A stretch of 64,000 nt of DNA from Parvularcula dongshanensis. GTDB taxonomy: Bacteria; Pseudomonadota; Alphaproteobacteria; Caulobacterales; Parvularculaceae. Position numbers and translations under genes: made by a program. Shown here one piece after another: positions 5,574 through 24,201 of this stretch (position 1 is its first letter; the number at the start of each line of letters is the position of its first letter). The DNA lies in assembly GCF_014199615.1 (NCBI RefSeq), contig NZ_JACHOB010000002.1, forward strand, positions 310,001 to 374,000, written 5' to 3'. A model generated the notes under the pieces. It did not search any database. It worked only from the letters and a program-made list of their open reading frames with translations, and was not told the origin of the DNA.

Positions 5574-6518
5574 CTAAACGGTGTCTTTCGTAGACATCAT
5601 TGCCTGCCGCACTTCGGTCGAGTGCTTGATTTCGTCCGGTGCCAGTTCGAGCTCATTCAGGATAAAGTCTCTGTACTGAGGCGGCATGTTTGTCAGGGTG
5701 TGGACCACCGACTTTATTTTCCGGTCGTTCGAAAGCTTAGCGACCTCGAAACTTATTTTTTCCGGTATGCCTTCCATTGTCGCGAACAGATCGGCGTTTC
5801 CAAGAAACTGAAACTCTTCATCATCGGTTGGGACGAGCGTTCGTCCAACGATCGTGAAGATTTCATACCCTAGTTGACTGAGAGCGCGCCGTAGATCCCG
5901 CACAGAGTAATTCCGATGCTGGCAAACTGGGCCGTTCGATTCATAGATGATGTAGGGGATGCGTCGCGAAGCGAGGAGATCTCGCGCACCTTCGAACGTC
6001 TCTAGCTCGCTTCCTTCTACGTCGATCTTCAGCAAGCGGGGCGATAAGGGGTTGTAGTGTTCGAGAAGAGTGCTCAGCGGCACCTGCTTGACCCGTATGC
6101 CTCCGCCCTCTGCAGTATTGGAGGTTTTAGCATAGGCACTCGAGCCTGCGATGAATATCTCCCCCTCCTCGCCGCCGACCGCCGCGTTGACGATCGAAAT
6201 CGATGCATCGCCGTTCCTAATAGCTGCTGCCCGGAGCAAATCGCAGTTCTCCGGCAGCGCCTCTACAAGGATACCTTCGCTGCCCGACAATTTTGCGACC
6301 GGGAAGGCGAAGGTGCCGATGTTCGCACCAGCGTCAATAAACGTATCACCCGGCCGAAGCAGCTCGGCAGCCAGAATATAATGACCTTCCATGTGCCACG
6401 AATTGCGTACGCGACTGGAGTACGGGTCAGCATAGTCTGAGAACGTTGCGAACGTAACCTCGAGCGATCCGAACCGGCTGGGCAGCAGGCCGTAGGTGGT
6501 ATAGATGATACTACTCAT
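5574..6518 (-). CDS. FkbM family SAM-dependent methyltransferase
   Basis: 314 aa. The SAM-binding motif I, FIDAGANIGTF, lies at residues 60-70, and the FkbM-typical LLKIDVEGSE at about 162-171. The family O-methylates sugars and other small groups and is common in surface-polysaccharide loci, so the likely substrate here is a glycan hydroxyl. GGAG lies seven bases before the ATG. It is the last gene of a three-gene minus-strand run (GT4, DUF115 protein, FkbM), 30 bp after the DUF115 gene, and abuts the IS remnant on its 3' side. Confidence 0.85.
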   Translation of the reverse strand: MSSIIYTTYGLLPSRFGSLEVTFATFSDYADPYSSRVRNSWHMEGHYILAAELLRPGDTFIDAGANIGTFAFPVAKLSGSEGILVEALPENCDLLRAAAIRNGDASISIVNAAVGGEEGEIFIAGSSAYAKTSNTAEGGGIRVKQVPLSTLLEHYNPLSPRLLKIDVEGSELETFEGARDLLASRRIPYIIYESNGPVCQHRNYSVRDLRRALSQLGYEIFTIVGRTLVPTDDEEFQFLGNADLFATMEGIPEKISFEVAKLSNDRKIKSVVHTLTNMPPQYRDFILNELELAPDEIKHSTEVRQAMMSTKDTV

Positions 6519-6548
6519 GATCTCGCTCCAACCTTAACCAATCACAAC

Positions 6549-7373
6549 TTAAAATAGGCTATCGAAATCCACGCGTGGGATCTGATTGAGGTTGCCGCCC
6601 ACCGTCGCGTTCAGCAACTTGCCGCCATAGAACTCAACCCCCTTGCGGCATGCAACGAACCCCCTGATCATTTCGTCCGTATTAGGATCGTGCCACTTTC
6701 GGCCTGCACCGAAGTATCGCGGATCGAAATGATTTTCGTCGTCATCCTGCGTGCTGGTCAGAAGCAGTTGCGTCCCAGTGCCAAACCGGTCTCCTCCTTC
6801 CTGAATGACGGTACTCGGCACGCGGTAGCTGACGTCGACGCCGACGAGGTATATCGGACTAAAGCCCAAGTAGAACGCTATTTGGATTGCCTGAACCAGC
6901 ACCGACCCACGTCCGGCAACGCCGTCATTCAGGATATCATGGCTGAACTGATCGGAAAACCGAGGGCCGCCGCCCCGCAACTTGAACCAGAAAGGATCGC
7001 CTAATTCATCGAAGAAACCTTTGTAGCGGGTCGGAAAAATAGGATATTCGATCCCTTCCATTGCGATGATCTCATCGCGAATATCGGGCGTGACTCTCCA
7101 GTCGATCGCTGTGTAGAAAGTCGGGCGCCACAACGTCCGATCGAACATTAGGTAAATTCGGTTCGCAGCAAAGGTATATTCGCCACGCAGCTTCTCGAAA
7201 TCGATCTTATTTAGACTAGGTCCATTTCCGACGATGAAAATCCTCTGACCAGAGAACTTCCCAGCCAAACTCGCCAATCGCTCACGATCCGTAGATGAGA
7301 GGTCAATCTCTCCTTCAGTACCGACACGCCTACGCCTACGTTGAATGAAATCGTCGTAGATGGAATTGGTCAT
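6549..7373 (-). CDS. DUF115/MptE-like (Maf-related) protein
   Basis: 274 aa. The motif VGNGPSLN (residues 48-55) starts a Rossmann-like domain shared with archaeal MptE (6-hydroxymethylpterin diphosphokinase) and with the Maf flagellin glycosyltransferases. LYLVGVDVSY-like residues (here YLVGVDVSYR, about 175-184) and KWHDPN near 230 recur in the DUF115 domain of the fusion gene at 15049-17340. In a glycan locus it is more likely to act on nucleotide-activated sugars than in pterin synthesis; this is inference. The ATGA overlap with the GT4 gene upstream points to translational coupling. It is one of three such domains in this locus. Confidence 0.75.
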   Translation of the reverse strand: MTNSIYDDFIQRRRRRVGTEGEIDLSSTDRERLASLAGKFSGQRIFIVGNGPSLNKIDFEKLRGEYTFAANRIYLMFDRTLWRPTFYTAIDWRVTPDIRDEIIAMEGIEYPIFPTRYKGFFDELGDPFWFKLRGGGPRFSDQFSHDILNDGVAGRGSVLVQAIQIAFYLGFSPIYLVGVDVSYRVPSTVIQEGGDRFGTGTQLLLTSTQDDDENHFDPRYFGAGRKWHDPNTDEMIRGFVACRKGVEFYGGKLLNATVGGNLNQIPRVDFDSLF

Positions 7374-8731
7374 CGTTTCAGGCTCATTCGATAGACTGCT
7401 TGCGCGGACCTGTAGAGCACCGGCCTACGCTCAAGAGCTTTTGCAAAGAAGTGGGCAAGCGGGCGCTCTTCAGCAGGGCTTGGCTGGGGGAGCACGGTCG
7501 TTGAGGGCGCTACGAGCGATACTGGCGCAGGCAAGTTCGAAGGTTCGGGCGCGATCGATGCCCCCCCCTTGCGAAACCGTTCCGCGACGACACGGGGCGC
7601 CCCCGCCTCATAGTAATCGTGCGGCTCATACTGATCGACAAGGTCACAGATATGGCTTCCAACGACTTCGGGACTGAACGAGCGCAGATCCGCGGGCGCG
7701 GAACCGTCTTTGCAACGCCCATAAGCGACACCGAGTGCCGCCGTCATGGTCGCATCGCGGACGTATGCTGCCTTGTGCCCGACGTAGAGCGCGACGTTCA
7801 CCGCCTCCATGGGATCAGGGAAGTCGTAATAGTCAGGTGACATCAAGACCGCGTTTTCGGTCGTCATGTACTCCAGGTTCCCGCCGAAGCCAGTCGCGAC
7901 GCAGATCTTACCCATACCGAGCGCATAGAACGATGGCAAATCCCATCCCTTCCCCCACTCGCTGCTCACGAGGACGTCGATAGTCGATAGCCATTCCCAT
8001 ACGTCCTGCCGGGTGAACCTTGCCGAGATCAGATCGACATTGTTCGATATTTCTAGAACATCGCCGTCAAGCGATGCGGTACGCAGAACTTCTTCAACCT
8101 CCTCTCGCCCACCTTCTGAAGTCTTGACGATCAAGCGCGCGTTCGACGGGATACCACCCTCCCGCCTCGCTCGTTGAAAACTTCTGACGCATTGACCTAT
8201 ACGTCGCCGCTCCGGTCGTGACGCGACGATGCCGAACTTAATCTCGTCAGCATCGATCGGACCTGCAGAAGCGAAGGAAGACAGATGCGTCGGAAGAACG
8301 TGAGGGACCTTCCGGATCATGAAGGGCGGAACGGCTGCGGAAAGATTGTCGACGTTGAAGTCCGATGCGGTCCATATCTCGTGGCAGTCCATGAGATCGT
8401 AAGCCCAGCGTGGCGAGAAGGTAGCAGTCTCGTTCACAACAAAACCGATCAGCCTAACCGCGCCGCGGAACTCAACTTTTTTAAGGAACTGCGGCGAGTC
8501 GTGACAAACGACGACGATCTTGTGTTGGGGTCTAATCGCGCTGATCGTCAGCCTACCGTCCGAAGCTACTACGCTCACCTTCCGTGAATGCGGCCCCACC
8601 ACGTCGTTCGTCAGGGTGTCGACTGCTATCGTATCGATTCCGGTCGCACGACAAGCTTCAACGTAACCATAGGCAGCATCGGCCAAGCCGCCAAAACCGG
8701 AAAAGCGGCCGAACCATACGATCGAGATCAT
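7370..8731 (-). CDS. Glycosyltransferase, GT4-like (GT-B fold)
   Basis: 453 aa. It opens with a donor-independent N-terminal Rossmann half (ISIVWFGRFSGFGGLADAA) and has a C-terminal GT4-like half with SSEWGKGWDLPSFYALGMGK (about residues 255-275) and an E in the usual nucleotide-sugar region. There is no membrane segment, so it is a cytosolic or membrane-associated sugar transferase. Donor and acceptor cannot be read from the sequence. A run of eight G (coding strand; 7561-7568) lies near the C-terminus, in codons for KGGAS. A slip there would replace the last 60 or so residues. It is the first gene of the minus-strand run and diverges from gmd. Confidence 0.75.
   Translation of the reverse strand: MISIVWFGRFSGFGGLADAAYGYVEACRATGIDTIAVDTLTNDVVGPHSRKVSVVASDGRLTISAIRPQHKIVVVCHDSPQFLKKVEFRGAVRLIGFVVNETATFSPRWAYDLMDCHEIWTASDFNVDNLSAAVPPFMIRKVPHVLPTHLSSFASAGPIDADEIKFGIVASRPERRRIGQCVRSFQRARREGGIPSNARLIVKTSEGGREEVEEVLRTASLDGDVLEISNNVDLISARFTRQDVWEWLSTIDVLVSSEWGKGWDLPSFYALGMGKICVATGFGGNLEYMTTENAVLMSPDYYDFPDPMEAVNVALYVGHKAAYVRDATMTAALGVAYGRCKDGSAPADLRSFSPEVVGSHICDLVDQYEPHDYYEAGAPRVVAERFRKGGASIAPEPSNLPAPVSLVAPSTTVLPQPSPAEERPLAHFFAKALERRPVLYRSAQAVYRMSLKR
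7561..7568 (+). repeat. C8 homopolymer tract inside the GT4 gene
   Basis: Eight consecutive C on the plus strand (G8 in the coding sense) lie inside the glycosyltransferase gene. Tracts of this kind can slip during replication and shift the frame. Confidence 0.7.
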
Positions 8732-8809
8732 GAAACAACGTCTTCTTGTGCTAACCCGTAAGCGCCGCCTAGACCGTCACCCAACAGATCACACGGACGC
8801 TCGATTTGT

Positions 8810-9847
8810 ATGAAAACTGCTTTGATCACTGGGGTAACGGGTCAGGATGGCGCCTACCTTTCGCGCCTTCTGCTGTCAAAGGGCTACACCGTCCACGGCA
8901 TCAAACGGCGGTCCTCTTCCTTCAATACAGGCAGGATCGACGACATATATCAGGATCTTCACGAGAACGAGCCACGCTTCGTCTTGCATTACGGCGATTT
9001 AACAGATGCAACCAGCATTATTCGTTTAATTCAGACGGTTGAGCCGGACGAGATATACAACCTAGGAGCGCAGAGCCATGTTCAGGTTAGTTTCGAGACG
9101 CCAGAATACACAGCGAATGCAGATGCCATTGGTGTTCTGCGGCTTCTAGAAGCAATCCGTATTCTCGGAATGACACAGAAAGTTCGCTTCTATCAAGCAT
9201 CTACCTCAGAACTCTATGGTCAGGTCCAAGAAGTTCCTCAGTCCGAGAACACGCCGTTCTATCCACGGTCTCCTTACGGCGTAGCGAAGCTCTATGGATA
9301 CTGGATCACGGTGAATTACCGGGAGAGCTATGGCATGTTCGCCGCCAATGGCATTCTCTTCAACCATGAGAGTCCCCTTCGCGGTGAGACCTTCGTTACG
9401 CGAAAGATCACCCGGGCGGTCGCCACCATCGCAGCTGGCGGACAAGACATCCTCTATCTTGGTAACCTGGACGCCCAGCGAGATTGGGGTCATGCCCGCG
9501 ATTACGTCGAAGGGATGTGGCGCGTCCTTCAGCACACTGCGCCTGAGGACTGGGTCTTCGGGACTGGGAAGACACATACCGTACGGCACTTCGTCGAACT
9601 CGCGTTCGCTGAGACGGGCCGTCGGATTGAATGGACAGGCACCGGTGTCGATGAGATCGGCCGCGATGCAGAAACGGGGGAAGTCCGCGTGCGAATCGAT
9701 CCGAGATACTTCCGCCCCGCCGAGGTTGATCTGCTGATCGCTGATCCGTCCAAGGCGCGCCGGGAACTCAATTGGCAACACTCCGTCGAACTGAAGGAAC
9801 TCGTCGCGGAGATGGTTGCAGCAGACCTTGTCGAGGCCCGCAGATGA
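8810..9847 (+). CDS. gmd: GDP-mannose 4,6-dehydratase
   Basis: 345 aa, the usual length. The NAD(P)-binding motif [10 protein letters not shown] lies at 8-17, the family's [12 protein letters not shown] at 33-44, STSELYG at 131-137, and the catalytic pair Y156/K160 in SPYGVAK. It converts GDP-D-mannose to GDP-4-keto-6-deoxymannose, the precursor of GDP-fucose, GDP-rhamnose and GDP-perosamine. The next gene overlaps its stop codon (ATGA) and encodes GDP-fucose synthase, which fixes the product as GDP-L-fucose or a close isomer. Confidence 0.96.
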
Positions 9848-10818
9848 CTATTTTCGACCTTGCAGGTAAGAAGGTCTACGTCGCTGGACACCGGGGAATG
9901 GTTGGCAAGGCGCTCGTGCGTAGGCTCGGGGCGGAGTCCTGCGAGGTTCTGACAGCGCGCCGGGACGAACTTGACCTGACGGACCAACGCCAAACTCTGG
10001 ATTGGTTTGCCTCCGCCCGTCCGGATGCAGTCTTCGTCGCAGCCGCACTGGTCGGCGGCATCTACGCCAACAGCACTTATCCCGCGAAATTTCTGTTTCA
10101 GAACCTCATGATAGCTACCAATGCGATTGAGGCCGCTCGGCTTGTGGGCGTGTCGAAACTCGTCTTCCTAGGATCAACTTGCATCTACCCAAAACACGCT
10201 TCCCAGCCAATCACGGAGGACGCACTACTAACGGGACCGCTTGAGCCCACAAACGAGTCGTACGCCATCGCCAAAATTGCAGGGGTCAAGTTGTGCCAAG
10301 CCTACCAGCGCCAGTACGGCTGCCGTTTCATCTCTGCTATGCCAACCAACCTCTACGGTCCCGGCGACAATTACCACCCAGAGAACTCGCACGTCATTGC
10401 TGGAATGTTCAACCGCGTTAGAGAGGCTCGCCGCGAGAGCAAACCATTCACCGTTTGGGGTACGGGCCGCCCTCGTAGGGAGTTTATGCACGTCGACGAT
10501 TGTGCCGACGCCCTCGTACATTTGATGGCGAATTACGAAGACGACGCTCCGATCAACGTGGGAACCGGCAAGGACATCACCATAGCCGAGCTGGCGGAAA
10601 TCATCGCTGCCGTCGCTGGTTTTGATGGTCCGATCACCTACGACCAATCCAAACCTGACGGCACACCCAGGAAGCTGACCGATGTCACTCGCCTCTTCCG
10701 CACTGGTTGGAGGCCTAAAGTCGAGCTGAGAGACGGGCTGGTAACCACATGGAATGACTATTTGGCTGAAGTTGGTGAAAGCCTATCCGGCGGACGCCGC
10801 ACTTTCGCCAGCCGCTGA
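9844..10818 (+). CDS. fcl: GDP-L-fucose synthase (epimerase/reductase)
   Basis: 324 aa from the ATG that overlaps the gmd stop. AGHRGMVG (14-21) is the NADPH-binding loop; GSTCIYP (110-116) and Y140/K144 in ESYAIAK form the SDR-type catalytic set of the family. It makes GDP-L-fucose (or the 4-epimer series) from the Gmd product by 3,5-epimerisation and 4-reduction. A longer in-frame start at 9772 would run inside gmd and is not needed. Its 3' end faces the methyltransferase gene 14 bp away. Confidence 0.95.
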
Positions 10819-10832: not shown

Positions 10833-11936
10833 TTAGATTGGCACCCCCTGTGTGAAAACTAGACTGTCTACAGTAATTCCGTCGGCGACGTGAGCGCCGC
10901 CTGACGCGTCCGCTTCAAGGCGCACCCGGCGCAACATCGGCGTCATGTTCCCAGCCGCAGGAAGAAGCCGCGATGAGAAGGTGGCGAAGTCGTACCCTCG
11001 TGCGAACGGGCTGATGATCTGATGATTGAACCTGACAATAACGCCGTCCGCCATGGCTTCCTCCTCGATCGCGTCCGCAAGCGCCGCGTCGTTACTAGCT
11101 ACGAAGGCGGAGAAGGGCTGGATCGTAACGCTCGGATAAGCGCTCGCGAAGAACGGTGTGATGATAAGTTGTCCTCCAGGACGAAGAACGCGAGCCGCTT
11201 CGGTGATGGCGGCAGCGTCCGCACCGCCCATGAAGTGCTCGAATGCGTTGTGGCTGACAACGAGATCGATGCTAGCGTCTTCTAATTCGGACAAGTCCGC
11301 CGCGTCGGTGCCGTAGCGAACGATCCCCTCAGTCTTTGCATGAAGACCAGTTGGGAAGCACAAGTCGACCATGATAATCTCAGCCGTAGGCGCGCCGACC
11401 CGGGCAACGCGCGCGAACCCGTCATAGGCAGCACCGAGATCAACGACACGACGCGCAGGCAGCGAAGCCAGCGCCGTTATGCTGATATGCCACTCCAGGT
11501 ACTTGGAGTAGTAGTAGTGCTGGTCGTGCAAGTTCCGCCTCGCAAACTGTTCGGCGACTAGCGGTTCCGCCCGGATCGTTGCCTCCAGGTCGCTAACCTT
11601 GATGCGCTCATCGCGCATCGCCAAGCCCGCGCTACGCCACGCGTCTTGGAACGACAGCTTGGACCGAGGCGAAGGCTGCCCAACCCTCGCCGCGACAGAT
11701 GGCGGGACGTACGGGTTCCAATCGGCAATATCCTGGAGGAAAGCCTTGAGCCCGGCGACGTTGTGCCAGGTGCCCTCCTCAGCGCTCGCACGGAGCGCAG
11801 CGAAGATCGCCAGAAGACGATCCGGACGTGTGTCGCCTCTGGCGTTAGTCGCATTCGCTAAGAACGTGCGCATCGAGGCGACGTCTTGGGGGTTGAACGA
11901 ACTCAACGCAGACCGTCCGGCTCTACCCTGTCGCAT
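10833..11936 (-). CDS. Class I SAM-dependent methyltransferase
   Basis: 367 aa. VVDLGAAYDG (about residues 164-173) is motif I and VLRPGGQLIITPF (about 250) the post-III motif of Methyltransf_11-type enzymes. SHNAFEHF lies between them. The N-terminal 150 residues have no match that I can name and may bind the acceptor. A GTG at 11951 also opens the frame, but AGGAG sits eight bases before the ATG at 11936, which is preferred. It probably methylates a sugar of the exported glycan; substrate unknown. Confidence 0.72.
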   Translation of the reverse strand: MRQGRAGRSALSSFNPQDVASMRTFLANATNARGDTRPDRLLAIFAALRASAEEGTWHNVAGLKAFLQDIADWNPYVPPSVAARVGQPSPRSKLSFQDAWRSAGLAMRDERIKVSDLEATIRAEPLVAEQFARRNLHDQHYYYSKYLEWHISITALASLPARRVVDLGAAYDGFARVARVGAPTAEIIMVDLCFPTGLHAKTEGIVRYGTDAADLSELEDASIDLVVSHNAFEHFMGGADAAAITEAARVLRPGGQLIITPFFASAYPSVTIQPFSAFVASNDAALADAIEEEAMADGVIVRFNHQIISPFARGYDFATFSSRLLPAAGNMTPMLRRVRLEADASGGAHVADGITVDSLVFTQGVPI

Positions 11937-12061
11937 TTCTGTGCTCCTCACTGAATCTCATCCTAGCCCAGCGGACGCATCTCTGCCCGTGGGGTAGACC
12001 TACGGAACCGATCGGCTATGGGGTTGGAACCTCGCGTTTAGCATCCAACCAACAGGTCGTC

Positions 12062-12844
12062 ATGACAACGGCTAAGATGGCGGCAGCGTCGCTGCTCACC
12101 TCATGGGATCGGATCGCCTATCTGGTTTGGCAAGACTTTGTGTCGCCTTACCGCCGCACCGCCTTCTCTGCCTTTTGGGCTGTCGTCAGACCGATCCTGC
12201 CGATCTCCGCATTCATATTCCTCCGCATGATTCTTCCCAGCGGAGATGAGGGGGTGCATCCGGTCGTCTACGTGGGTATCGGTACGATCCTATGGTTCTA
12301 CCTTTCCGAACTTCTGATGTCACCTGTACAGACATTTCGAAGGAAGAGGTCGCTACTCGGGACAACTCAGTTCACGCCCATAGGAATCATCGCAACTGGA
12401 GCAGGCGGCGTTCTTCTGGATTTCGCCCTCCGAGCAACCTTCGCACTCCCCTTCGTTCTTTCCTACGGCTCGATAGAACTCGAGAATGTACCTGCGGGGT
12501 TGGCCCTAATCGTCACTTCAGGTATTGTTAGTCTTGGTATTGGGATTATTCTTCTGCCTGCTTTTCTCGTCTTTCCCGACCTCTACGAAGCGGCGACGGT
12601 TATCCTCAGATATGCAATCTTTTTCAGCCTCGCTGTCTTTCCGCTCGGCCCCGAGACGTCAGACTTGCTGATGAACACAAACCCGTTCGCGCTCATCATC
12701 GCTGAAACTCGTGCCTGCTTGTTAGGCAACGGCGTGCCGTTCACGCTTATCGTTACTCTGTGCGCCCTCTCGATTGGCACGACCTACCTCGGCTTCTGGG
12801 TGACAGGAGCTCTAGGCTCGGTCCTGAGAGAAGCGGCCTCATGA
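12062..12844 (+). CDS. ABC-2 type polysaccharide export permease (Wzm-like)
   Basis: 260 aa with about six membrane segments and the ABC2_membrane organisation of KpsM/Wzm/RfbD permeases: a cytoplasmic N-terminus with WQDFVSPYRRTAFSAFW, then paired helices. It forms the inner-membrane channel for a finished, lipid-linked glycan. The ATPase gene overlaps its stop (ATGA at 12841), and both belong to one export unit. No Wzx/Wzy flippase or polymerase is seen in the window, consistent with ABC-dependent export. Confidence 0.88.
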   Translation: MTTAKMAAASLLTSWDRIAYLVWQDFVSPYRRTAFSAFWAVVRPILPISAFIFLRMILPSGDEGVHPVVYVGIGTILWFYLSELLMSPVQTFRRKRSLLGTTQFTPIGIIATGAGGVLLDFALRATFALPFVLSYGSIELENVPAGLALIVTSGIVSLGIGIILLPAFLVFPDLYEAATVILRYAIFFSLAVFPLGPETSDLLMNTNPFALIIAETRACLLGNGVPFTLIVTLCALSIGTTYLGFWVTGALGSVLREAAS

Positions 12845-14034
12845 CCACTTTGATTGAGGTTGAGCATGTCCGAAAGCTGTTCGGATTGAGCTTGGCTGCA
12901 CAGCGTCGTCACAATGCGAGGCGCATCGTTGGCCGCCTAACCGGCAGGTCGATTGAGACCTCCTTCTACGGTTTCACTGCCCTGGATAAAGTTACCTTCA
13001 GTGTCTCCCGGGGTGAGGCAGTGGCGATTCTCGGCCGTAATGGTGCAGGTAAGTCGACTCTGCTGCGCATAATAGCCGGCCATGTCTTGCCGGATGCAGG
13101 CAGCGCTCTGACGCGCGGCAGAGTCACAGAGCTCTTCGACCTTACGACAGGCTTCGACCCCGCAAGATCGGGGCGAGACAACGTCGCGCTCGTGGGCGTC
13201 TTGCGTGGTCTAGACGTCGAAACGGTCCGCGAACGAACAGACGATATTCTATCTTTTAGCGAACTCGGTGAGCGTTTGGACGCACCGTTCGGCAGCTACA
13301 GTCAAGGAATGAAACTCCGACTTGGATTCTCCATTGCAGTCCACACTGAGCCGGACATCTTATTAATCGACGAAGTGCTCGGCGTTGGCGATCTTCAATT
13401 TAAAAATAAGTGCCTTGGTCGTCTTGAGCGAATGAAACGTCGGACCGCGACGATCTTCGTTACTCATTCGCTCAGCCAGGCCGCAAACTTCTGCGACCGT
13501 GCACTCGTGATAGACGGTGGGAAGATTGTCTACGATGGCAGTGTTGATGCGGGGATTGATTACTACGAGAGCATTCAACGCGCTGCGTCTCGTGGCGGGT
13601 CGGTGTCCGGCCCCGTGCTCCAGAACACCGAAGCGGTCACGGCAGCATCAGGACGCTGGAGTCGCGACGTATTCGGCTTCGGCAAACCGCTCAGTTTGGA
13701 TCTGGATATCACCGTCGCGAGACCGCCGGTCGCTTTGGCAGCGTCCGTCCTGTTGTACACCCAGGACGGACAGAAGGTTGCGGACTTTACCGATCCCAGC
13801 TCTGGCGCACTGGCTGCGCTCGAACCAGGTCATCCTAAAACGATACACGTAGCCGTAGCCCCCCTCCCCTTAGGCGGAGGCCAATACAAGGCCGTTCTCG
13901 CCATTCGGGACGGTGCCGAACTCGTTCACCGGACCCCTCTACCCGATCTCGAGATCGCAAAATCTGGGACCGGGTCTTGGGGCCTCCTCCATCCGAAATC
14001 GCGGTGGTCGCTAGTTGAGAACGAGACGGCATGA
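12841..14034 (+). CDS. ABC transporter ATP-binding subunit with C-terminal extension (Wzt-like)
   Basis: 397 aa. Walker A GRNGAGKST (65-73), a variant signature SYSQGMKLR (152-160), Walker B ILLIDE (173-178) and switch H209. After about residue 255 comes a beta-rich extension that resembles the Wzt carbohydrate-binding domain, which recognises the terminal modification of the glycan in Wzt proteins of E. coli O8/O9a. Here the extension contains no clear consensus and its ligand is unknown. It overlaps both neighbours by ATGA junctions, forming a permease-ATPase-GT2 operon. Confidence 0.9.
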   Translation: MTTLIEVEHVRKLFGLSLAAQRRHNARRIVGRLTGRSIETSFYGFTALDKVTFSVSRGEAVAILGRNGAGKSTLLRIIAGHVLPDAGSALTRGRVTELFDLTTGFDPARSGRDNVALVGVLRGLDVETVRERTDDILSFSELGERLDAPFGSYSQGMKLRLGFSIAVHTEPDILLIDEVLGVGDLQFKNKCLGRLERMKRRTATIFVTHSLSQAANFCDRALVIDGGKIVYDGSVDAGIDYYESIQRAASRGGSVSGPVLQNTEAVTAASGRWSRDVFGFGKPLSLDLDITVARPPVALAASVLLYTQDGQKVADFTDPSSGALAALEPGHPKTIHVAVAPLPLGGGQYKAVLAIRDGAELVHRTPLPDLEIAKSGTGSWGLLHPKSRWSLVENETA

Positions 14035-17355: not shown

Positions 17356-18642
17356 CTAGGACCTGTCCGCTGCGAAGACGTGGACCAGCGATCGGACTCT
17401 TTGCGCCGCGCGGCTCCGCCACGACCGGAAGCGTCGAAATGCTGCGGCACGGCGGTGTGGTGGACGCGCGGCGACTTCGAGAGCGGACGCGTACGAAGGC
17501 ATCGGCGGCCACCGCTCGCGTAGGGCCACCAGCACGTCCTGCGGCGCCAAAGGGGAACCGTCCGGTGCCCCAAGGCGGACGCGCGCTCCTTGCCGCCTCA
17601 GGACGGCGACTAAATCCCACTTCTGATCGAGTTGCTGGGCTAAACTCGCAGCATTGGCCCCGCCGCCGCGAACGACGACCCCCCCAAAATCTTCGTTGGG
17701 GTCATCGGGGTCTGCGGCCTCCAGGACATCCCATCGCAAGGCATCCGAAGAACTCGGCAACTGTTCGAGCACCCGCCAGCCGAACCGTTGCGCGAGCCGG
17801 CGGCTCGCGATGCCGCGCGGATCCCAAAGGCGGCCGTACCAAGCAGGAGCGAGAGCGCTCAACACCGTTTCGGCGGTTACCCGGTCATGCGGATCCGACC
17901 TTTCGGCTGGCGGCTCGCCCGGCGGCATGCAACCTAACCTCGCTACGTCCAGCCGCCCCTCGACGAGCGTAACCTTGGCGGTCTCGAAACGGTCGATAGC
18001 CGATGCTTTCGAGCCGTTCAGTACCGTCACGCCGCGCTGATCAAGCGCGCGCGCGGCGCGGCGCCACGCGATCGCATGTGTCCCCCCACCCGGGTTGGGC
18101 ACGCAGTAGCGATCTCCAACCTGCTGATATTCATCAAAGTAGTAGTTCGGATTCGCCGCCTGACGTTGGATCCGGAGTTCTATCCCCTCTTCGCGCTTAG
18201 CTTGCGGAAGCATTTCGACGTAACGGCCGTCGATTCCGAGAAGCACAACCTCTTCGTAGCCCAACTCGGCACCCCACAAGGCAGCATGACTACCAGTCGT
18301 CACCGGCCGGCAGCGGGCCAGAATGCCACTTTTTGGAAGATCATCGTAGCACAGCACCTTGTCCGAACGGCGGATCGAAGGCGCAGCGTCGAGCAGGTTT
18401 CGACGGAGAAGAAATTGCTCAATGCCCAGCGACCCAGCCTGCTCGACCATATCGGTGATGGCCGACGCGTGGGACAAACCGACGACAAGGTCCAGGCAAG
18501 CGTAGTAAGTCGGCCACGACTGTTCCTGTGACCACGCCCGGTAGGCTGCGTTCATGCCGATCCAGCGCTCGCACAGAAGCCCCTCTCGCGGGACGTGGCG
18601 CAAGGACGGTCCGTTTCCGACGACGAATACCCGACGTGTCAT
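17356..18642 (-). CDS. DUF115/MptE-like protein, divergent third copy
   Basis: 428 aa. The motif VVGNGPSLR sits at the very N-terminus (7-15), with VVLLGIDGRY (about 132-141) in place of the YLVGVD seen in the other two copies, so this is the most distant of the three. After about residue 240 the sequence turns Arg/Ala/Pro-rich and I recognise nothing; it ends in a strongly basic tail. Upstream of the fusion gene on the same strand, it diverges from a GT2 gene. A sugar-transfer role is likely only by analogy. Confidence 0.65.
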   Translation of the reverse strand: MTRRVFVVGNGPSLRHVPREGLLCERWIGMNAAYRAWSQEQSWPTYYACLDLVVGLSHASAITDMVEQAGSLGIEQFLLRRNLLDAAPSIRRSDKVLCYDDLPKSGILARCRPVTTGSHAALWGAELGYEEVVLLGIDGRYVEMLPQAKREEGIELRIQRQAANPNYYFDEYQQVGDRYCVPNPGGGTHAIAWRRAARALDQRGVTVLNGSKASAIDRFETAKVTLVEGRLDVARLGCMPPGEPPAERSDPHDRVTAETVLSALAPAWYGRLWDPRGIASRRLAQRFGWRVLEQLPSSSDALRWDVLEAADPDDPNEDFGGVVVRGGGANAASLAQQLDQKWDLVAVLRRQGARVRLGAPDGSPLAPQDVLVALRERWPPMPSYASALEVAARPPHRRAAAFRRFRSWRSRAAQRVRSLVHVFAADRS

Positions 18643-18773: not shown

Positions 18774-19742
18774 ATGACGAGCGCCAGCGAGCCGGTTGAC
18801 GTATCGATTATCTTTCGGTCTCTCAACGAGGAGCGTTGGCTCGGCGCCGCGCTTGATGCATGCCGACGTCAAAAGACGGATGGCCTTATTGTCGAAACCA
18901 TTTTGGTGGACAGTGGCTCGATTGATCGAACGGTCGATATCGCCGAGGCGAATGGCGTGGAGGTCGTGACCATCCCGCAGCATCGCTTTACTTTTGGGCG
19001 CAGTCTGAATTGGGGGTGCGAAGCGGCTCGAGGTCGGATCTTCGTCTTCATCTCAAGCCACTGCATCCCGACACATGACCGCTGGCTAGCGAATCTGATT
19101 GCGCCGCTGCGCGAAGGACATGCGGCTTACGTGTATGGTCGGCAGGTCGGACACGACACGACGAAGTTTTCCGAGAAGCAGATCTTCGCGAAGTACTTTC
19201 CGGAACAAAGCCAGGTTCCGCAGGATGGCTTCTTCTGCAACAACGCGAATGCGGCGATCCTGAAAGAAATATGGGAGAATCATCGGTTTGACGAGCAGTG
19301 CACGGGGTTAGAGGACATGGTGCTCGCGAAGCATCTGACCACCATTGGCTACGAGGTCGGCTACGTCGCTGAAGCCCCTGTCTACCACATTCATGACGAG
19401 ACGCTTCGTCAGACCAGAAATCGGTACTACCGCGAAGCGCTTACCTTACGTGACATCATGCCGAACATCCATGTGGGGCGACGTGACAGCCTTAGGTACT
19501 TCGCCGCTGGCGTCTGGCACGACTGGATCGAAGCTCGTCGAGAAAAGCGGCTGCTGAACGAACTACTCAGTACGGTGAAATTCCGCGCTGCGCAGTTCTG
19601 GGGCACCTACAAGGGCCACAATGAGAACCGGCGCTTGTCGCGCGCCGAACAGGAGGCCTACTACTATCCACGTGTTGCGACTGGCGAACGCGCCGCCAGT
19701 ACAGCACAGCTTGATGCTGGTCGCATCGAGGTGCAATCATGA
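18774..19742 (+). CDS. GT2-family glycosyltransferase (rhamnosyltransferase-like)
   Basis: 322 aa. The GT-A domain starts VDVSIIFRSLNEERWL (8-23), with VDSGSIDRTVDIA (about 44-56) and FISSHCIP (about 92-99). TGLEDMVLAKHL (about 183) is the late acidic motif. This pattern fits rhamnosyltransferase-type GT2 enzymes, though the donor cannot be fixed. It begins a plus-strand operon; the next gene overlaps its stop (ATGA at 19739). Confidence 0.82.
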   Translation: MTSASEPVDVSIIFRSLNEERWLGAALDACRRQKTDGLIVETILVDSGSIDRTVDIAEANGVEVVTIPQHRFTFGRSLNWGCEAARGRIFVFISSHCIPTHDRWLANLIAPLREGHAAYVYGRQVGHDTTKFSEKQIFAKYFPEQSQVPQDGFFCNNANAAILKEIWENHRFDEQCTGLEDMVLAKHLTTIGYEVGYVAEAPVYHIHDETLRQTRNRYYREALTLRDIMPNIHVGRRDSLRYFAAGVWHDWIEARREKRLLNELLSTVKFRAAQFWGTYKGHNENRRLSRAEQEAYYYPRVATGERAASTAQLDAGRIEVQS

Positions 19743-20443
19743 GCCTCGACGTGACAGCCCTCCTACCAATGAAGGCTAACAGCGAGCGGGTTCGCGGTAA
19801 GAACTTCCGTCCGATTGCTGGCAAACCGCTCTTCCGTTGGATCCTAGATGCTCTGCTTGAAGAGCCTCGCATCAGCCGGGTCGTGATCAACACCGATGCG
19901 TTGTCCGAGCTTGCGGCGGCCGGTTTGGAAGGCGGTTCAGACGAACGCATCGTTCTACGCGAACGGCGGCCTGATCTTCGTGGCGACTTCGTATCGATGA
20001 ACTTGGTTCTTCAGGACGATGTACACGCTATTGGCGGCGACGCCTACTTCATGACCCACACCACCAATCCCCTTCTTTCGGCCGCCACGATCGGTGACAT
20101 GATCGATCAGTACGAAGAGGCGCTGGCCACTAAAAGGGCCGATAGTTTGTTCTCGGTCAACCGCTTACAAACACGATTCTATACTGGTGCTGGTACACCG
20201 ATCAATCACGACCCGAACGATTTGATCCGGACCCAGGACCTCGAACCCTACTTTGAGGAGAACTCCGTTGCCTACCTCTTCAGCCGCGAGAGCTTCGCCA
20301 AGACCGGAGCACGCATTGGACTGAAGCCTCTCTTGTACCGTACTCCTCCGTTGGAGTCGGTCGACATTGACGAAAGGTCAGACTGGTACTTAGCGGAAAG
20401 CCTTCTACTGCGTGGTCCCGCCCCATCGGAGGCGTTGCTATGA
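19739..20443 (+). CDS. Acylneuraminate cytidylyltransferase-family protein (CMP-sugar synthetase)
   Basis: 234 aa. LLPMKANSERVRGKN (8-22) is the CTP-binding P-loop-like motif of NeuA/KdsB enzymes, in the variant MKxNSERVxGKN form. SVDIDERSDWYLAE near the C-terminus is the family's end motif. Such enzymes transfer CMP to 2-keto-3-deoxy sugar acids (sialic, legionaminic, pseudaminic acid, Kdo). No NeuB-type synthase or sugar-acid isomerase lies in the window, so the sugar is unknown. The ATGA overlap on both sides puts it in one operon with a GT2 and a hydroxyacid dehydrogenase. Confidence 0.85.
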   Translation: MSLDVTALLPMKANSERVRGKNFRPIAGKPLFRWILDALLEEPRISRVVINTDALSELAAAGLEGGSDERIVLRERRPDLRGDFVSMNLVLQDDVHAIGGDAYFMTHTTNPLLSAATIGDMIDQYEEALATKRADSLFSVNRLQTRFYTGAGTPINHDPNDLIRTQDLEPYFEENSVAYLFSRESFAKTGARIGLKPLLYRTPPLESVDIDERSDWYLAESLLLRGPAPSEALL

Positions 20444-21369
20444 AGCCGCGTGTGCTAGTCACATGTCCGCCCATGCTTCGACTGTTTGAGGAGTTCGGCG
20501 ATGACTTCGACGCCGCAGGGCTCGAAGGTTGCCCAGGCGACGTGACCCAGGTCCTAAGCGAAGATGAGTTGATCGATCTCCTGCCCGGCTATGACGGCTG
20601 GATCATCGGAGACGATCCTGCATCCGAACGCGTCCTAGACGCAGGAGGCAGTCGGCTACGAGCGGCGGTGAAGTGGGGCGTTGGCGTTGATAACGTCGAC
20701 TTCGCAGCCTTCGAACGTAGAGGCATTCCAATCACGAACACGCCGGGGGTGTTCGGTCGCGAAGTCGCGGACGTCGCGGCAGGTTACGTCCTTGGTCTCG
20801 CTCGGTCTCTATACCGGATCGACCGAGAGGTGCGAGCGGGTGGGTGGCCGAAACCTGCTGGCGTGTCTCTATGGAACAAGCGCTGTGGTATCGTCGGATT
20901 TGGCGATATCGGGCGCGAGACGGCTCGTCGCTGCTTGGCGTTCGGAATGGAGGTCATTGCTTATGACCCAGCTTTCGTGGCCGTCCCCGACCTCGAAGTA
21001 CGAGCGGCTGTGTGGCCAGAAGCGATCGAGACGCTCGACTTCTTGATCTTTACTTGCCCTCTGAACGTGCATACGGCCGGCATGTTCAACGATAAAATCG
21101 TCGACCGCGTAAAACGGGGACTTTTTGTCGTGAACGTCGCTCGTGGTCCTATTATTCGGGAGCAGGCGCTCCACAGGGGTTTGCAGTCGGGTGCAATCGC
21201 AGCAGCGGCTCTAGATGTCTTCGAAACGGAGCCCCTGCCTACTGAGAGTCCGCTACGTACCTACGGCGATTGTATCTTCGGCTCACACAATGGATCAAAC
21301 ACGGTAGACGCCGTTCGGCGCGTAAGCCGAACCGCGATCAAGCATATGGCCGAGTTCCTCAAGAATTGA
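20440..21369 (+). CDS. D-isomer-specific 2-hydroxyacid dehydrogenase
   Basis: 309 aa. VGFGDIG (152-158) binds NAD; the catalytic R in NVARGPI (about 231-237), E in DVFETEPLP and H in GSHNGSNT are all present, as in phosphoglycerate dehydrogenase. It lacks the C-terminal ACT or ASB domains of SerA, so a role in serine synthesis is not indicated. Its overlap with the CMP-sugar synthetase gene suggests a sugar-acid step, such as reduction or oxidation of a 2-keto group. Its end overlaps the convergent lactonase gene by 11 bases. Confidence 0.82.
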   Translation: MKPRVLVTCPPMLRLFEEFGDDFDAAGLEGCPGDVTQVLSEDELIDLLPGYDGWIIGDDPASERVLDAGGSRLRAAVKWGVGVDNVDFAAFERRGIPITNTPGVFGREVADVAAGYVLGLARSLYRIDREVRAGGWPKPAGVSLWNKRCGIVGFGDIGRETARRCLAFGMEVIAYDPAFVAVPDLEVRAAVWPEAIETLDFLIFTCPLNVHTAGMFNDKIVDRVKRGLFVVNVARGPIIREQALHRGLQSGAIAAAALDVFETEPLPTESPLRTYGDCIFGSHNGSNTVDAVRRVSRTAIKHMAEFLKN

Positions 21370-22255
21370 GTAAGAGTGCCGCGCGGTCGCTCGGCATGCC
21401 GATCGTATCGGTTTCGTAGACGAACACGCTTCCGGAGAGAGGCCAACTTTCTAACTGGGCGGCCGATAGATCGCGTCGTGCGCTCGTTACGAAGAGGTGC
21501 CTGAAGCCTGGGCCTCCGAATACGGGACAAGTCACATGCGGCGCAGGGACAGCGAGTTCGCATAGATGCTCCCCACCCGGCGAGTAGCAAGCCACGGCCC
21601 CCTTCCCCCACAATGCGACCCAAAGACGCCCAAAGCTGTCCGTTACCGCACCGTCGGGCGAGCCGTCCTCGACTTCTACAAAGATTTCCCAGTCGGGTGG
21701 GCGATCCGATGACGGATCGAAATGGGCTTGTACGATCGTACCTGTCCCAGAGTCCGCATGATAGACCGTCTTCCCGTCCGGCGACCAGCAAAGACCGTTC
21801 GAGATCGCGAGACCTCGACGCATGGTAACGATCGTCCCGTTCCCGTTCAGGCGATAGAGTTTTCCCGACGGGTTGCCCGCAAACGACCCTTCGTGCATGG
21901 AACCGGCCCAGAACTGACCGCTCGGATCGACACGCCCGTCGTTCAGCCGGAGGCCGGCTCCTATGTCCGTTGGCCGCGAGATCCAAGCCACGCTCTCTTC
22001 TTCGAGGTCCCAAATGCCGAAGCCCTCGTCGAACGCGCACAGAAGGCGATCCTCGGTGCCGTCCAAGAACGCGAATGCGCAGAGGCGATACGGCGTTGAG
22101 TAACGTTTGATCCGAAGGTCTGGCCAAGAAGCTCTGCACAGCCGCCTACCGATGATGTCGGCCCACCACACCGTGTTGTCCGTATCGCGCCACAACACGC
22201 CTTCCCCCAGCGTATCGCCACTTTCGATCGTGTACACTAGCCGTACGTCAAACAA
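21359..22255 (-). CDS. SMP-30/gluconolactonase-like sugar lactonase
   Basis: 298 aa, a six-bladed propeller by family. GEGVLWRD (17-24) supplies the metal-binding Glu; RLNDGRVDPSG (about 102-112), ISNGLCWSPDG (about 151-161) and the SPDGAVTD region (about 199) carry the other ligands. The family hydrolyses sugar lactones such as gluconolactone or arabinolactone. The start is a TTG at 22255, with a run of ten G on the coding strand ending nine bases upstream, in the place of a ribosome site. A later GTG at 22237 is possible. With the SDR enzyme encoded divergently, it could form a sugar to lactone to aldonate route. Confidence 0.82.
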   Translation of the reverse strand: MFDVRLVYTIESGDTLGEGVLWRDTDNTVWWADIIGRRLCRASWPDLRIKRYSTPYRLCAFAFLDGTEDRLLCAFDEGFGIWDLEEESVAWISRPTDIGAGLRLNDGRVDPSGQFWAGSMHEGSFAGNPSGKLYRLNGNGTIVTMRRGLAISNGLCWSPDGKTVYHADSGTGTIVQAHFDPSSDRPPDWEIFVEVEDGSPDGAVTDSFGRLWVALWGKGAVACYSPGGEHLCELAVPAPHVTCPVFGGPGFRHLFVTSARRDLSAAQLESWPLSGSVFVYETDTIGMPSDRAALLLNS

Positions 22256-22263
22256 TTACTAGT

Positions 22264-22273
22264 CCCCCCCCCC
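22264..22273 (+). repeat. C10 homopolymer tract upstream of the lactonase gene
   Basis: Ten consecutive C on the plus strand lie in the divergent gap between the lactonase (start 22255) and SDR (start 22392) genes. In the lactonase sense this is G10, ending nine bases before the TTG start. Confidence 0.75.
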
Positions 22274-22391
22274 GCGCTGGTGCGGCACGCAGTCGAATGT
22301 ATATCAACCGGTTCGATGCTTCTCGCTAGGGTTTTCAGCCGCGTGCGCATGTGGTCTATCGACTGTCTCTGGAGGGCAGCGGGACGATGGA

Positions 22392-23165
22392 ATGACGAAA
22401 TCTCTAACGGCCCACTATCCGAGCCTAGCTGCCAAACGGGTCTTCGTCACCGGTGGCGCGACGGGAGTTGGCGGTTCGGCCGTTGAGGCGTTCGCGAGCC
22501 AAGGGGCGCTGGTCGGCTTTGTCGACAAGAATGTGCGCGCCGGGGAGGCGTTGTGCGGTCGGGTTCAAGCGGCGACTGGGAACGAACCGTGGTTCGCGCC
22601 GGTCGACGTGACAGTCGAGGGCGCCCTAGCGGAGGCGATCCGTACCTTCGCGGAGGATCGCAACGGCCTTGACGTTCTCGTAAACAACGTTGCCAACGAT
22701 GCCCGGCATGACCCAATGGACGTCACGTTGGAACGGTGGCGCGAGAACTTCAGCGTCAACGTCGATGCTGCGTTCTTCGGCGCACAGGCGGCGTTGAAGC
22801 TTATGATACCTGCCGGTGGTGGGGCGATCATCAACATCTCTTCCATCAATGCGCTGCTAGGGTTCCCGAACATGCCGGGATACATTACGGCCAAGTCAGC
22901 ACTCTTGGGAATGACAAAGGCGCTGGCGAACGAGTACGGGCCTGCAGGAATCCGCGTGAACGCCGTCCTACCAGGTTGGGTGGCCACTGAACGTCAACTC
23001 GAGACCTGGCTCACGCCCGAAGCAGAAGCAGAATGGTCAACACGCGTCGCTCTGAAGGGTCGGATAGAACCCAGCGACGTCGCAAACCTAATCCTGTTCC
23101 TGAGTTCGAACGACAGTCGGATGATCACAAGCCAGTTCTTTATAATCGATGCAGGACGAACTTGA
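22392..23165 (+). CDS. Short-chain dehydrogenase/reductase
   Basis: 257 aa, classical SDR. TGGATGVGG (20-28) binds NAD(P), NNVAN (98-102) is the structural motif, and S151/Y164/K168 in ISS and YITAK form the active site. D45 after the second strand (VGFVDKN) suggests NAD preference. The substrate is unknown; the neighbouring sugar lactonase suggests an aldose dehydrogenase. It overlaps the downstream GT2 gene by 17 bases. Confidence 0.87.
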   Translation: MTKSLTAHYPSLAAKRVFVTGGATGVGGSAVEAFASQGALVGFVDKNVRAGEALCGRVQAATGNEPWFAPVDVTVEGALAEAIRTFAEDRNGLDVLVNNVANDARHDPMDVTLERWRENFSVNVDAAFFGAQAALKLMIPAGGGAIINISSINALLGFPNMPGYITAKSALLGMTKALANEYGPAGIRVNAVLPGWVATERQLETWLTPEAEAEWSTRVALKGRIEPSDVANLILFLSSNDSRMITSQFFIIDAGRT

Positions 23166-24201
23166 CCGCCAACAGGTACGAGGCGCCATCTCGTGCTCGT
23201 CTCTCAGCATAATTATCATTAATTATAATGCAGGGTGTCGCCTGAAACGATGTCTTGCAGCATTGGCGCGGCAAAGCGATCCGCACTTCGAGGTCATCGT
23301 TGTAGACAATGCCTCTTCTGATGACTCTCAAGAAGTTGTCAAATCGCCCTTCCGTCTCGTTCGATCGGACGACAATTTGGGCTTTGCGGCAGGATGCAAC
23401 CTCGGCGTACGGCACGCAGCTAGCGAATGGATAGCTTTCTTGAACCCGGATGCTTACCCGGATGCACGGTGGGTCGCGGAGTTGAGATCGGGAATGGAAC
23501 GCTTTCCCGGTGTCGATGCGTTTGGTTCGACTCAGCTGACAGCGGGCGTGGAGGACCAGATCGATGGTCTGGGAGACGCCTATTTCGTGGCAGGGCAGCC
23601 GTTCCGTGGCGGGTTCGGCCAACGGCGCGTGGGATCTTTTCCGGAAGGAGAGGTCTTTGCGCCTTGCGCCGCTGCAGCTCTATGGCGTCGCAAGACATTC
23701 GTTGACTTAGGCGGTTTCGAAGAACGCTTCTTCTGTTACGGCGAGGACGTCGACCTCGGGTACCGACACCGGCTAGCAGGTGGTCGGTGCGTTCAACTCA
23801 GGGATGCAATCGTCGCACATGAGGGCTCCGGAATTAGCGGTCGGCACTCAGCGTTCACAGTGTACCACGGTCATCGAAACCGTATTTGGGTATTCCTACG
23901 CAATACTCCTCTCCCAATTCTGCTGGTTGCCTTCCCAGCACACATTCTGCTCAACTTGCTACTCGTCTTTCAAACCGCACGTCACGGTCAGGGAAACGCC
24001 TACCTGCGTGCCGTCCGCGACGCAGTTCGCGGCGCTGATCCCTTCCTCTCGGAGCGTAGAACGCTTCATGCAGATGCAGTACCGTGGTGGCGAGTTGCAC
24101 GCGCACTTACGTGGTCGCCTCTAGCCGTCCTACGACGCTCTCCCAAGGTCTGGAACAACGCAAGCGTGCAGTTCGAGCAGCGTACGCCAGCACGAAGTTA
24201 G
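23149..24201 (+). CDS. GT2-family glycosyltransferase
   Basis: 350 aa. The GT-A domain starts SLSIIIINYNAG (18-29), with VVDNASSDDS (about 45-54), FLNPDA (about 96-101) and GEDVDLGYRHRLAGG (about 198-212). A hydrophobic stretch at about 255-278 may be a membrane association helix. The pattern resembles WbbL-type rhamnosyltransferases, without proving the donor. It is the last gene of the glycan locus, ending 10 bases before the tRNA gene. Confidence 0.85.
   Translation: MQDELDRQQVRGAISCSSLSIIIINYNAGCRLKRCLAALARQSDPHFEVIVVDNASSDDSQEVVKSPFRLVRSDDNLGFAAGCNLGVRHAASEWIAFLNPDAYPDARWVAELRSGMERFPGVDAFGSTQLTAGVEDQIDGLGDAYFVAGQPFRGGFGQRRVGSFPEGEVFAPCAAAALWRRKTFVDLGGFEERFFCYGEDVDLGYRHRLAGGRCVQLRDAIVAHEGSGISGRHSAFTVYHGHRNRIWVFLRNTPLPILLVAFPAHILLNLLLVFQTARHGQGNAYLRAVRDAVRGADPFLSERRTLHADAVPWWRVARALTWSPLAVLRRSPKVWNNASVQFEQRTPARS

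Follow-up and report, generated by a model that had tools for sequence, protein, structure and literature searches.

A glycan locus of Parvularcula dongshanensis that may build a CMP-activated acidic sugar without NeuB

The cytidine monophosphate (CMP)-activated sialic, legionaminic and 3-deoxy-D-manno-octulosonic (Kdo) acids are made by phosphoenolpyruvate-condensing synthases. From what source, then, does a glycan locus draw its acidic sugar when it encodes an enzyme resembling CMP-sugar synthetases and its genome has no match to the NeuB-type synthase? The question is raised by a stretch of 64,000 nucleotides of Parvularcula dongshanensis (contig NZ_JACHOB010000002.1, positions 310,001 to 374,000; hereafter the window), where a cytidylyltransferase gene lies beside genes for three proteins with the motif GNGPSL. 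A sequence-only reading of the window had linked these proteins, via a DUF115/MptE-like domain, to the transfer of a CMP-activated sugar outside the standard flagellin pathway. Three enzymes beside the cytidylyltransferase that were not part of that reading, a D-2-hydroxyacid dehydrogenase, a lactonase and a short-chain dehydrogenase/reductase (SDR), suggest the source of the sugar. We propose that the locus makes a surface glycan for which a CMP-activated 2-ulosonic acid would be built without NeuB, and that the GNGPSL proteins would transfer this acid to a glycan exported by an ABC transporter; we put the probability of this reading as a whole at about 0.46, i.e. a little below even. The genes at its centre are the following (positions in the window, strand, description, family match):

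6549..7373, minus: GNGPSL protein 1, 274 aa, MptE-like with a GT42-like fold, candidate CMP-ulosonate transferase (PF01973, 42.9 bits)
15049..17340, minus: GNGPSL protein 2, 763 aa, with an MptE-like domain (residues 60-212) and a GT4-like part (residues ~370-670) (PF01973, 43.8 bits)
17356..18642, minus: GNGPSL protein 3 (type B), 428 aa, with a GT42-like domain in the first ~230 residues (no Pfam hit)
18774..19742, plus: GT2 glycosyltransferase b (GT2b), which opens the cassette (PF00535, 76.5 bits)
19739..20443, plus: cytidylyltransferase (CMP-ulosonate synthetase-like), 234 aa, the core gene (CTP_transf_3, PF02348, 55.5 bits)
20440..21369, plus: D-2-hydroxyacid dehydrogenase, proposed aldonate 2-dehydrogenase (PF02826, 157.5 bits)
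21359..22255, minus: SMP-30/gluconolactonase family protein (SGL), proposed aldonolactonase (PF08450, 226.6 bits)
22392..23165, plus: SDR, proposed aldose 1-dehydrogenase (PF13561, 181.3 bits)

The four open reading frames (ORFs) that the sequence-only reading had singled out, i.e. those of the three GNGPSL proteins and of the cytidylyltransferase, are as it had described them, and the GNGPSL motif is present in each of proteins 1, 2 and 3. In the proposed pathway: i) the SDR would convert a free aldose into a lactone by oxidation at C1; ii) the SMP-30 enzyme would open the lactone to an aldonic acid; iii) the D-2-hydroxyacid dehydrogenase would oxidise C2 to give a 2-keto-aldonate, whose ring closure would make C2 the anomeric carbon; iv) the cytidylyltransferase would load CMP on the anomeric C2 to give a CMP-ulosonate; and v) the GNGPSL (GT42-like) proteins would move the sugar to the growing glycan, which a Wzm/Wzt-like ABC transporter would export. 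The scheme is a proposal from gene content, and this holds for each reaction and its direction, for substrate and product, and for transferase and acceptor. That the cytidylyltransferase acts on a 2-keto acid sugar is probable; the chances that this sugar is made by the oxidative route are somewhat better than even, and transfer by the GNGPSL proteins is likewise favoured to a modest degree.

The cytidylyltransferase and its cassette

The description of the cytidylyltransferase as acylneuraminate cytidylyltransferase-like was borne out by its CTP_transf_3 score (cut-off 22.6 bits), and its residues D209, D211, R17, K21 and N22 are invariant in 12 aligned sequences. The best NCBIfam match is PseF, with 52.7 bits against an equivalog cut-off of 205.7 bits that is not reached. 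KdsB was rejected as its identity: the enzyme has 20.6 bits on the KdsB model (NF003952, cut-off 193 bits) and the genome encodes a KdsB above this cut-off elsewhere, outside the locus like its KdsA, so the link of the DUF115/MptE-like proteins to a CMP-sugar survives this objection. The lack of a NeuB-type synthase, noted earlier for the window, extends to the whole genome (3.13 Mb, 99.98% complete), in which PF03102 has no match, and a NeuB-dependent pathway was thereby ruled out. The two flagellin genes of the genome are on contigs C4 and C8 and not on the contig of the locus. Flagellin glycosylation was rejected on this ground, and a standard flagellin pathway, which the earlier reading had also set aside, is unlikely given the missing NeuB as well.

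Related genomes were labelled G for those of the order, with G000 for the genome of the window, and loci were labelled L. A cytidylyltransferase homologue of at least 150 bits is carried by 22 of the 150 genomes in the order sample; G025 (105 bits, 35% identity) was left outside these 22. NeuB was not found in 19 of the 21 cassette genomes, G000 included, and in the two carriers, G069 and G138, it adjoins a different, weaker cytidylyltransferase match. KdsA is above its cut-off in 21 of the 21, and KdsB is matched in all 21 and above its cut-off in 14, G000 among them. On the Thalassovita gelatinovora plasmid pAge77, kdsB, kdsA, SDR, SGL and MptE-like genes share a locus with the cytidylyltransferase and dehydrogenase genes; since this locus has its own kdsA and kdsB besides the cytidylyltransferase gene, Kdo and a second CMP-sugar are suggested to be distinct products there. 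In Schlesneria (L081:7803-8534), a cytidylate kinase gene directly precedes the cytidylyltransferase gene, which would fit CMP recycling.

The motifs of the three oxidising-route enzymes are intact. The dehydrogenase has the nucleotide-binding motif GFGDIG, and the three motif glycines as well as R235, E264, H283 and D176 are invariant in 13 aligned sequences; R235, E264 and H283 match the Arg-Glu-His triad of D-2-hydroxyacid dehydrogenases. An aspartate after the second strand is a sign of preference for nicotinamide adenine dinucleotide (NAD), and D176 at this place points to NAD, with which the reaction would run in the direction of oxidation. Precedents are SerA and PdxB, members of the D-2-hydroxyacid dehydrogenase family whose phospho-aldonate substrates are oxidised at C2. 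The SMP-30 protein contains all of GEGVLW, LNDG, SNGL and DGA, and the SDR contains TGGATGVG and YITAK.

These genes form a cassette (GT2b, cytidylyltransferase, D-2-hydroxyacid dehydrogenase, SDR and SMP-30 lactonase) whose core recurs across phyla. In the window the cytidylyltransferase ORF shares four bases with GT2b upstream and four with the dehydrogenase downstream. A scan of one genome each for 84,980 species gave 224 relatives of the cytidylyltransferase, of which the best 80 were retained, and all counts over 80 loci refer to these. The loci, with cytidylyltransferases of 57-68% identity, belong to the Alpha-, Gamma- and other Proteobacteria, Cyanobacteria, Planctomycetes, Verrucomicrobia and Nitrospira, and contain: the dehydrogenase (74), GT2b (71, in 62 of the 80 directly upstream of the cytidylyltransferase), the SDR (50), SGL (31) and GNGPSL proteins (55). 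Eighteen loci appear to stem from genomes that also fed the family profiles; the corresponding counts for the other 62 are 57, 57, 40, 22 and 40, and in 54 of these 57 the dehydrogenase gene starts -197 to +100 bp from the end of the cytidylyltransferase gene. The dehydrogenase is thus close to constant and the SDR frequent, with SGL present in roughly one locus out of three. Enough flanking DNA to judge the absence of a gene is available for 64 of the 80 loci (loci with room), all of which hold GT2b or a GNGPSL protein (both in 45, GT2b alone in 12 and a GNGPSL protein alone in 7).

Within the order we compared 22 loci, from 20 other genomes at 60-67% cytidylyltransferase identity, from G147 (43%) and from G025, two of the stretches sitting on contigs of less than 5 kb. 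Clustering recovered GT2b in 17, the dehydrogenase in 19, the SDR in 12 and SGL in 9 of them, and in 7 all five genes follow one another as GT2b, cytidylyltransferase, dehydrogenase, SDR and SGL. When the plus-strand neighbours in 73 of the 80 loci were clustered and 20 chosen neighbour proteins scanned, no further family that would define the sugar proved to be generally shared besides the cassette. At L134, L135 and L136 (Thalassovita, Sulfitobacter and Gemmobacter) the cytidylyltransferase and dehydrogenase genes are on Rhodobacterales plasmids, with galE after the dehydrogenase gene in the first two; in Nitrospira (L099:6685-8010) the gene after that of the SDR encodes a weakly ATP-grasp-like protein (28 bits, under the cut-off of 29.1), and the acidic sugar may be modified further there. 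No description of the cassette was found in the open-access literature searched; a phosphoglycerate cytidylyltransferase, CpgD, has been described in Caulobacter.

The GNGPSL proteins and the surrounding glycan genes

Proteins 1 and 2 pass the PF01973 cut-off of 34.6 bits, and they are the only PF01973 matches at E ≤ 0.001 in the whole genome; protein 3 fails this model and has no Pfam match at E ≤ 0.1. The DUF115/MptE-like domain that had been assigned to all three is thus confirmed by Pfam for two, yet the third is a profile relative: a profile of protein 3 and 11 relatives (A4) matched a profile of protein 1 and 18 relatives (A3) with a probability of 99.7 and an E of 2e-26 over 220 columns. 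Protein 3 is therefore related to protein 1 by homology, and the possibility that GNGPSL is shared as a chance motif was ruled out. None of the three proteins falls in an unrelated family, so the link to CMP-sugars holds on this side as well. The GT4-like part of protein 2 is weak, with PF13524 and PF13439 below their cut-offs.

The occurrence of PF01973 is tied to that of the cytidylyltransferase. In the order, PF01973 is found in 15 of the 22 genomes with the cytidylyltransferase versus 3 of the 128 without (Fisher p 7e-13), and in a class sample of 385 genomes, where the cytidylyltransferase was called at E ≤ 1e-25, in 6 of the 7 with versus 45 of the 378 without (p 2.6e-5; 5 of 6 and p 1.7e-4 minus the window genome), p-values that overstate independence, as the genomes are related by descent. 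In the 15 order genomes the PF01973 gene lies on the contig of the cytidylyltransferase gene, 1.4 to 13.9 kb away. Six loci of the class were fetched: L142 and L144 have the whole cassette and MptE-like genes; L143 has GT2b, cytidylyltransferase and dehydrogenase genes with GNGPSL genes on both sides; in L141 an MptE-like gene and the cytidylyltransferase gene share one base, with a weaker dehydrogenase at a distance of 2.5 kb; in L140 the only partner is a weaker dehydrogenase at 3.3 kb, the PF01973 match being ~20 kb away; and on the 9.5 kb contig of L145 neither a dehydrogenase nor an MptE-like gene is present.

Profile and structure comparisons relate the proteins to the GT42 enzymes CstI and CstII. 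In the PDB, the A4 profile matched CstI/CstII eight times, these sequences being variants of two proteins, and also another lipooligosaccharide sialyltransferase, all at E 9e-7 to 2e-5; one unrelated chain was matched at E 2.5. The A3 profile had CstII on top (E 0.003), followed by an uncharacterised protein (0.052), Maf 5mu5 (0.069) and MptE 8sd5 (0.18), none of which reaches 0.001. AlphaFold models were obtained for proteins 1 and 3 from alignments of 19 and 12 sequences, with a predicted local distance difference test score (pLDDT) of 86 for protein 1 and of 68.6 for protein 3, the first 230 residues of which are good and the C-terminal half poor. In Foldseek, the model of protein 1 matched CstII first (E 2.3e-4) and archaeal HPPK next (1e-3), with Maf 5mu5 absent among the 50 matches listed, and for protein 3 CstI/CstII structures occupy ranks 1-14 (E from 3.7e-6), followed by Maf 5mu5 at rank 15 (1.6e-4) and then HPPK. 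Each family has an invariant histidine (H215 in A3, H189 in A4), which may or may not correspond to the catalytic base of CstII.

A structural similarity of the Maf_flag10 domain (pfam01973) to CstII, and a Maf enzyme that takes CMP-Neu5Ac and Kdo, are described in PMC11339370, where PF01973, MptE-like by its Pfam name, is called MAF_flag10. The CstII likeness is therefore known for the family, and the novelty lies in its connection with this cassette. The connection between DUF115 proteins and CMP-sugars made in the sequence-only reading is thus supported by the PF01973 linkage and the CstII fold; the transferase role of the GNGPSL proteins, the acceptor and the identity of the sugar are what we infer beyond these. 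Very large ORFs (~1,200-2,300 aa) with one or two GNGPSL domains were seen in several loci (L036:15333-19991, L041:528-4757, L050:16261-19989 and others), and some of them also hold GT2-like stretches, as if several assembly enzymes were fused.

The other genes of the locus are:

2382..4748, plus: RTX protein with calcium-binding repeats, of uncertain start and possibly a surface partner (PF00353, 16 stretches)
5574..6518, minus: FkbM-family methyltransferase (PF05050, 79.3 bits; TIGR01444, 82.2 bits)
7370..8731, minus: GT4-like glycosyltransferase (PF13692, 21.6 bits, below the cut-off of 27)
8810..9847, plus: GDP-mannose 4,6-dehydratase, gmd (PF16363, 518.5 bits)
9844..10818, plus: GDP-L-fucose synthase-like, fcl, following gmd in related loci (PF01370, 217 bits; scanned as the longest ORF, from 9772)
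10833..11951, minus: S-adenosylmethionine-dependent methyltransferase (PF08241, 41.4 bits)
12062..12844, plus: ABC exporter permease, Wzm-like (no Pfam hit; placed on account of the ATPase gene that follows it and of tblastn matches next to Wzt-like genes in related loci)
12841..14034, plus: ABC exporter ATPase, Wzt-like (scanned from 12838; PF00005, 70 bits)
14031..15068, plus: GT2 glycosyltransferase a (PF00535, 43.3 bits)
23149..24201, plus: GT2 glycosyltransferase c (PF00535, 85.5 bits)

The Wzt C-terminal domain of the ATPase is weak (PF14524, 21.6 bits, cut-off 30.4), and on the Wzt/RfbE model NF050108 the ATPase has 167 bits, under the cut-off of 400. By tblastn, the 22 order loci contain: a gmd/fcl pair of at least 55% identity (12), a Wzt-like gene (14) and a GNGPSL-domain match (17). 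In 4 of the 22 there are also RTX matches close to the cytidylyltransferase, and the RTX gene of the window adjoins the glycan locus.

Exceptions, counter-evidence and rival explanations

In a few loci other folds apparently stand in for the lactonase or for the enzyme that makes the 2-keto acid, and we count these exceptions in favour of the proposed pathway. L085, L099, L102 and L121 are without SGL and encode a metallo-beta-lactamase-fold (MBL) protein one or two genes upstream; the three that were scanned with NCBIfam are weakly like L-ascorbate 6-phosphate lactonase (39-63 bits, cut-off 306). In L104 and L128 (Opitutales) the gene that immediately precedes that of the cytidylyltransferase encodes an HpaI/GarL-type pyruvate aldolase (~160 bits, cut-off 369), an enzyme type that handles 2-keto-3-deoxy acids; no dehydrogenase is found within 9 kb downstream of the cytidylyltransferase in L104, and the contig of L128 stops 289 bases past it, so that absence cannot be judged there. 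G078, first scored without the three enzymes, has a dehydrogenase-SDR-SGL block ~20 kb off (532, 329 and 362 bits), and among nine order genomes that were checked further for SGL it is on the same contig in G099, G078, G140 (~16 kb) and G080 (~18 kb). Proteins with DUF2793 occur beside the cassette in L035, L039, L044, L047 (directly after the dehydrogenase) and at L036:6373-7299, the L039 and L036 copies having been scanned and the other three clustering with L039. Their genes were considered as a replacement for SDR and SGL in four loci and dropped, as nothing marks them as enzymes; the protein could be a glycosylated surface protein or a chance neighbour.

A number of observations weigh against the proposed pathway, and they concern: i) the completeness of the cassette: 19 of the 64 loci with room have neither an SDR nor an SGL gene, neither lactonase type is found in 16 of the 44 SDR loci with room, G020, G070, G089, G105 and G125 have SGL-like genes only on other contigs, and the flanks of L130 and L075 hold no dehydrogenase, SDR or SGL, other enzymes having been sought in only some of the neighbours; ii) the enzyme assignments: the best model of the SDR, D-xylose 1-dehydrogenase (NF053674), gives 250 bits, under its cut-off of 400, and no SDR, MBL or aldolase match reaches its NCBIfam cut-off; iii) the product: an HpaI-type aldolase would yield a 3-deoxy acid and the oxidative route a 3-hydroxy acid, and therefore either the substrates vary between loci or one step is misread; iv) the fold: the structural match to CstII is moderate (TM-score ~0.5 by target length and ~0.3 by full-length protein 3, root mean square deviation ~5-8 Å) and comes from models with alignments of only 19 and 12 sequences, archaeal HPPK is close behind CstII for protein 1 in Foldseek, and PF06002 (CST-I) gives 14.1 bits for protein 1, under the cut-off of 25, with neither protein 2 nor protein 3 matched at E ≤ 0.1; and v) the specificity of the transferase: the 45 of 378 class genomes with PF01973 and no cytidylyltransferase mean that the family is not specific to the cassette and has other roles, and 12 of the 64 loci with room have GT2b without a GNGPSL protein in the flanking DNA covered.

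The last count belongs to the main rival explanation, which we consider unlikely: the CMP-ulosonate would be real and GT2b its transferase, the GNGPSL proteins using other donors or acting as phosphotransferases like MptE. GT2b stands immediately before the cytidylyltransferase in 62 of the 80 loci, it is present in all 12 of these GNGPSL-less loci, and in two genomes scored without it, G070 and G105, a GT2b gene lies 20-27 kb off on the same contig. However, the 7 of the 64 loci with room that lack GT2b all hold a GNGPSL protein, the GNGPSL proteins resemble a CMP-sugar transferase and the gene of one overlaps the cytidylyltransferase gene in L141, and we know of no GT2 enzyme that uses CMP-sugars, which counts against GT2b in this role.

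It is quite unlikely that the cytidylyltransferase activates Kdo or a KdsA-made Kdo derivative, with the other enzymes making an unrelated acidic substituent, e.g. glyceric acid. KdsA in all 21 cassette genomes and the kdsA and kdsB genes of the pAge77 locus would fit this explanation, but at the pAge77 locus a kdsB gene is already present in addition to the cytidylyltransferase gene, the window enzyme is far below the KdsB cut-off that the separate KdsB of G000 exceeds, and in most loci, over several phyla, the genes of the cytidylyltransferase and the dehydrogenase touch or overlap. For a Maf-like O-glycosylation of a surface protein with an acidic sugar, e.g. of the RTX protein at 2382-4748, there is a slim chance. 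The RTX matches in 4 of the 22 related loci are in its favour, as is the sharing of PF01973 with Maf enzymes, which use CMP-sugars including Kdo according to PMC11339370; but in the 274 aa of protein 1 a single domain was found and protein 2 has a GT4-like part, unlike the three-domain Maf of that paper. The Wzm/Wzt-type exporter and the several glycosyltransferases would also fit a polysaccharide better. That this is an ordinary glycan locus in which catabolic-type sugar-oxidising enzymes stand by chance is hardly credible: SDR and SMP-30 proteins do belong to big families of promiscuous enzymes, but gene order and adjacency are kept in several phyla and, as a rough yardstick, there are 11 SGL-like genes in 9 whole genomes (E ≤ 1e-20) versus SGL in 31 of 80 stretches of at most ~19 kb that surround the cytidylyltransferase.

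Known systems and significance

The proposed pathway can be set against six known systems. Maf flagellin glycosyltransferases (PF01973; 5mu5) have in common with the window the GNGPSL/MptE-like domain, a CMP-sugar context and a fold match of protein 3, whereas the window proteins are smaller or differently fused, have no flagellin or NeuB nearby and stand with an ABC exporter; none of them is a three-domain protein in a flagellin/nonulosonic acid setting. CstI and CstII of GT42 are the best profile match for the families of proteins 1 and 3 and the best fold match of both models, with GNGPSL aligned, but the window proteins are below the CST-I profile cut-off and the genome is without a sialic acid synthase. 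NeuB-NeuA and PseI-PseF are alike in the CTP_transf_3 enzyme, with PseF as best NCBIfam match; unlike there, the window enzyme is far under the PseF cut-off, NeuB is lacking and the partners are a dehydrogenase, a lactonase and an SDR. KdsA-KdsB also lead to a 2-ulosonic acid activated with CMP, as would the window enzymes, whereas the window genome keeps its KdsA and KdsB separately elsewhere. In Weimberg-type aldose oxidation, with xylose dehydrogenase XylB and xylonolactonase XylC, we find the counterpart of the pairing of an SMP-30 protein with an SDR similar to the D-xylose 1-dehydrogenase model, but the window SDR remains below the cut-off of that model, the next step would apparently be C2 oxidation and not dehydration, and the genes are in a glycan locus. 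Archaeal MptE (HPPK; 8sd5, 8sbu), the role of which is in pterin synthesis, gives the Pfam family its name and is the fold match just behind CstII, whereas the window proteins have a glycan context.

Beyond the window, these loci may represent an undescribed and widespread class of CMP-ulosonic acid pathways, an extension that we put forward with reserve: the acid would come from an aldose oxidised step by step, or in some lineages from the action of a pyruvate aldolase, without a NeuB-type phosphoenolpyruvate-condensing synthase, and MptE-like/GT42-like proteins would be the dedicated transferases. If confirmed, this would be a so far unreported way of building CMP-activated acidic sugars. 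The supply of a 2-keto acid by oxidation would then be a second logic for CMP-sugar making, present in several phyla and on Rhodobacterales plasmids; many MptE-like proteins that are named after a pterin enzyme would gain a donor, and hence a testable activity, and the cassette would be a source of enzymes for new acidic glycans.

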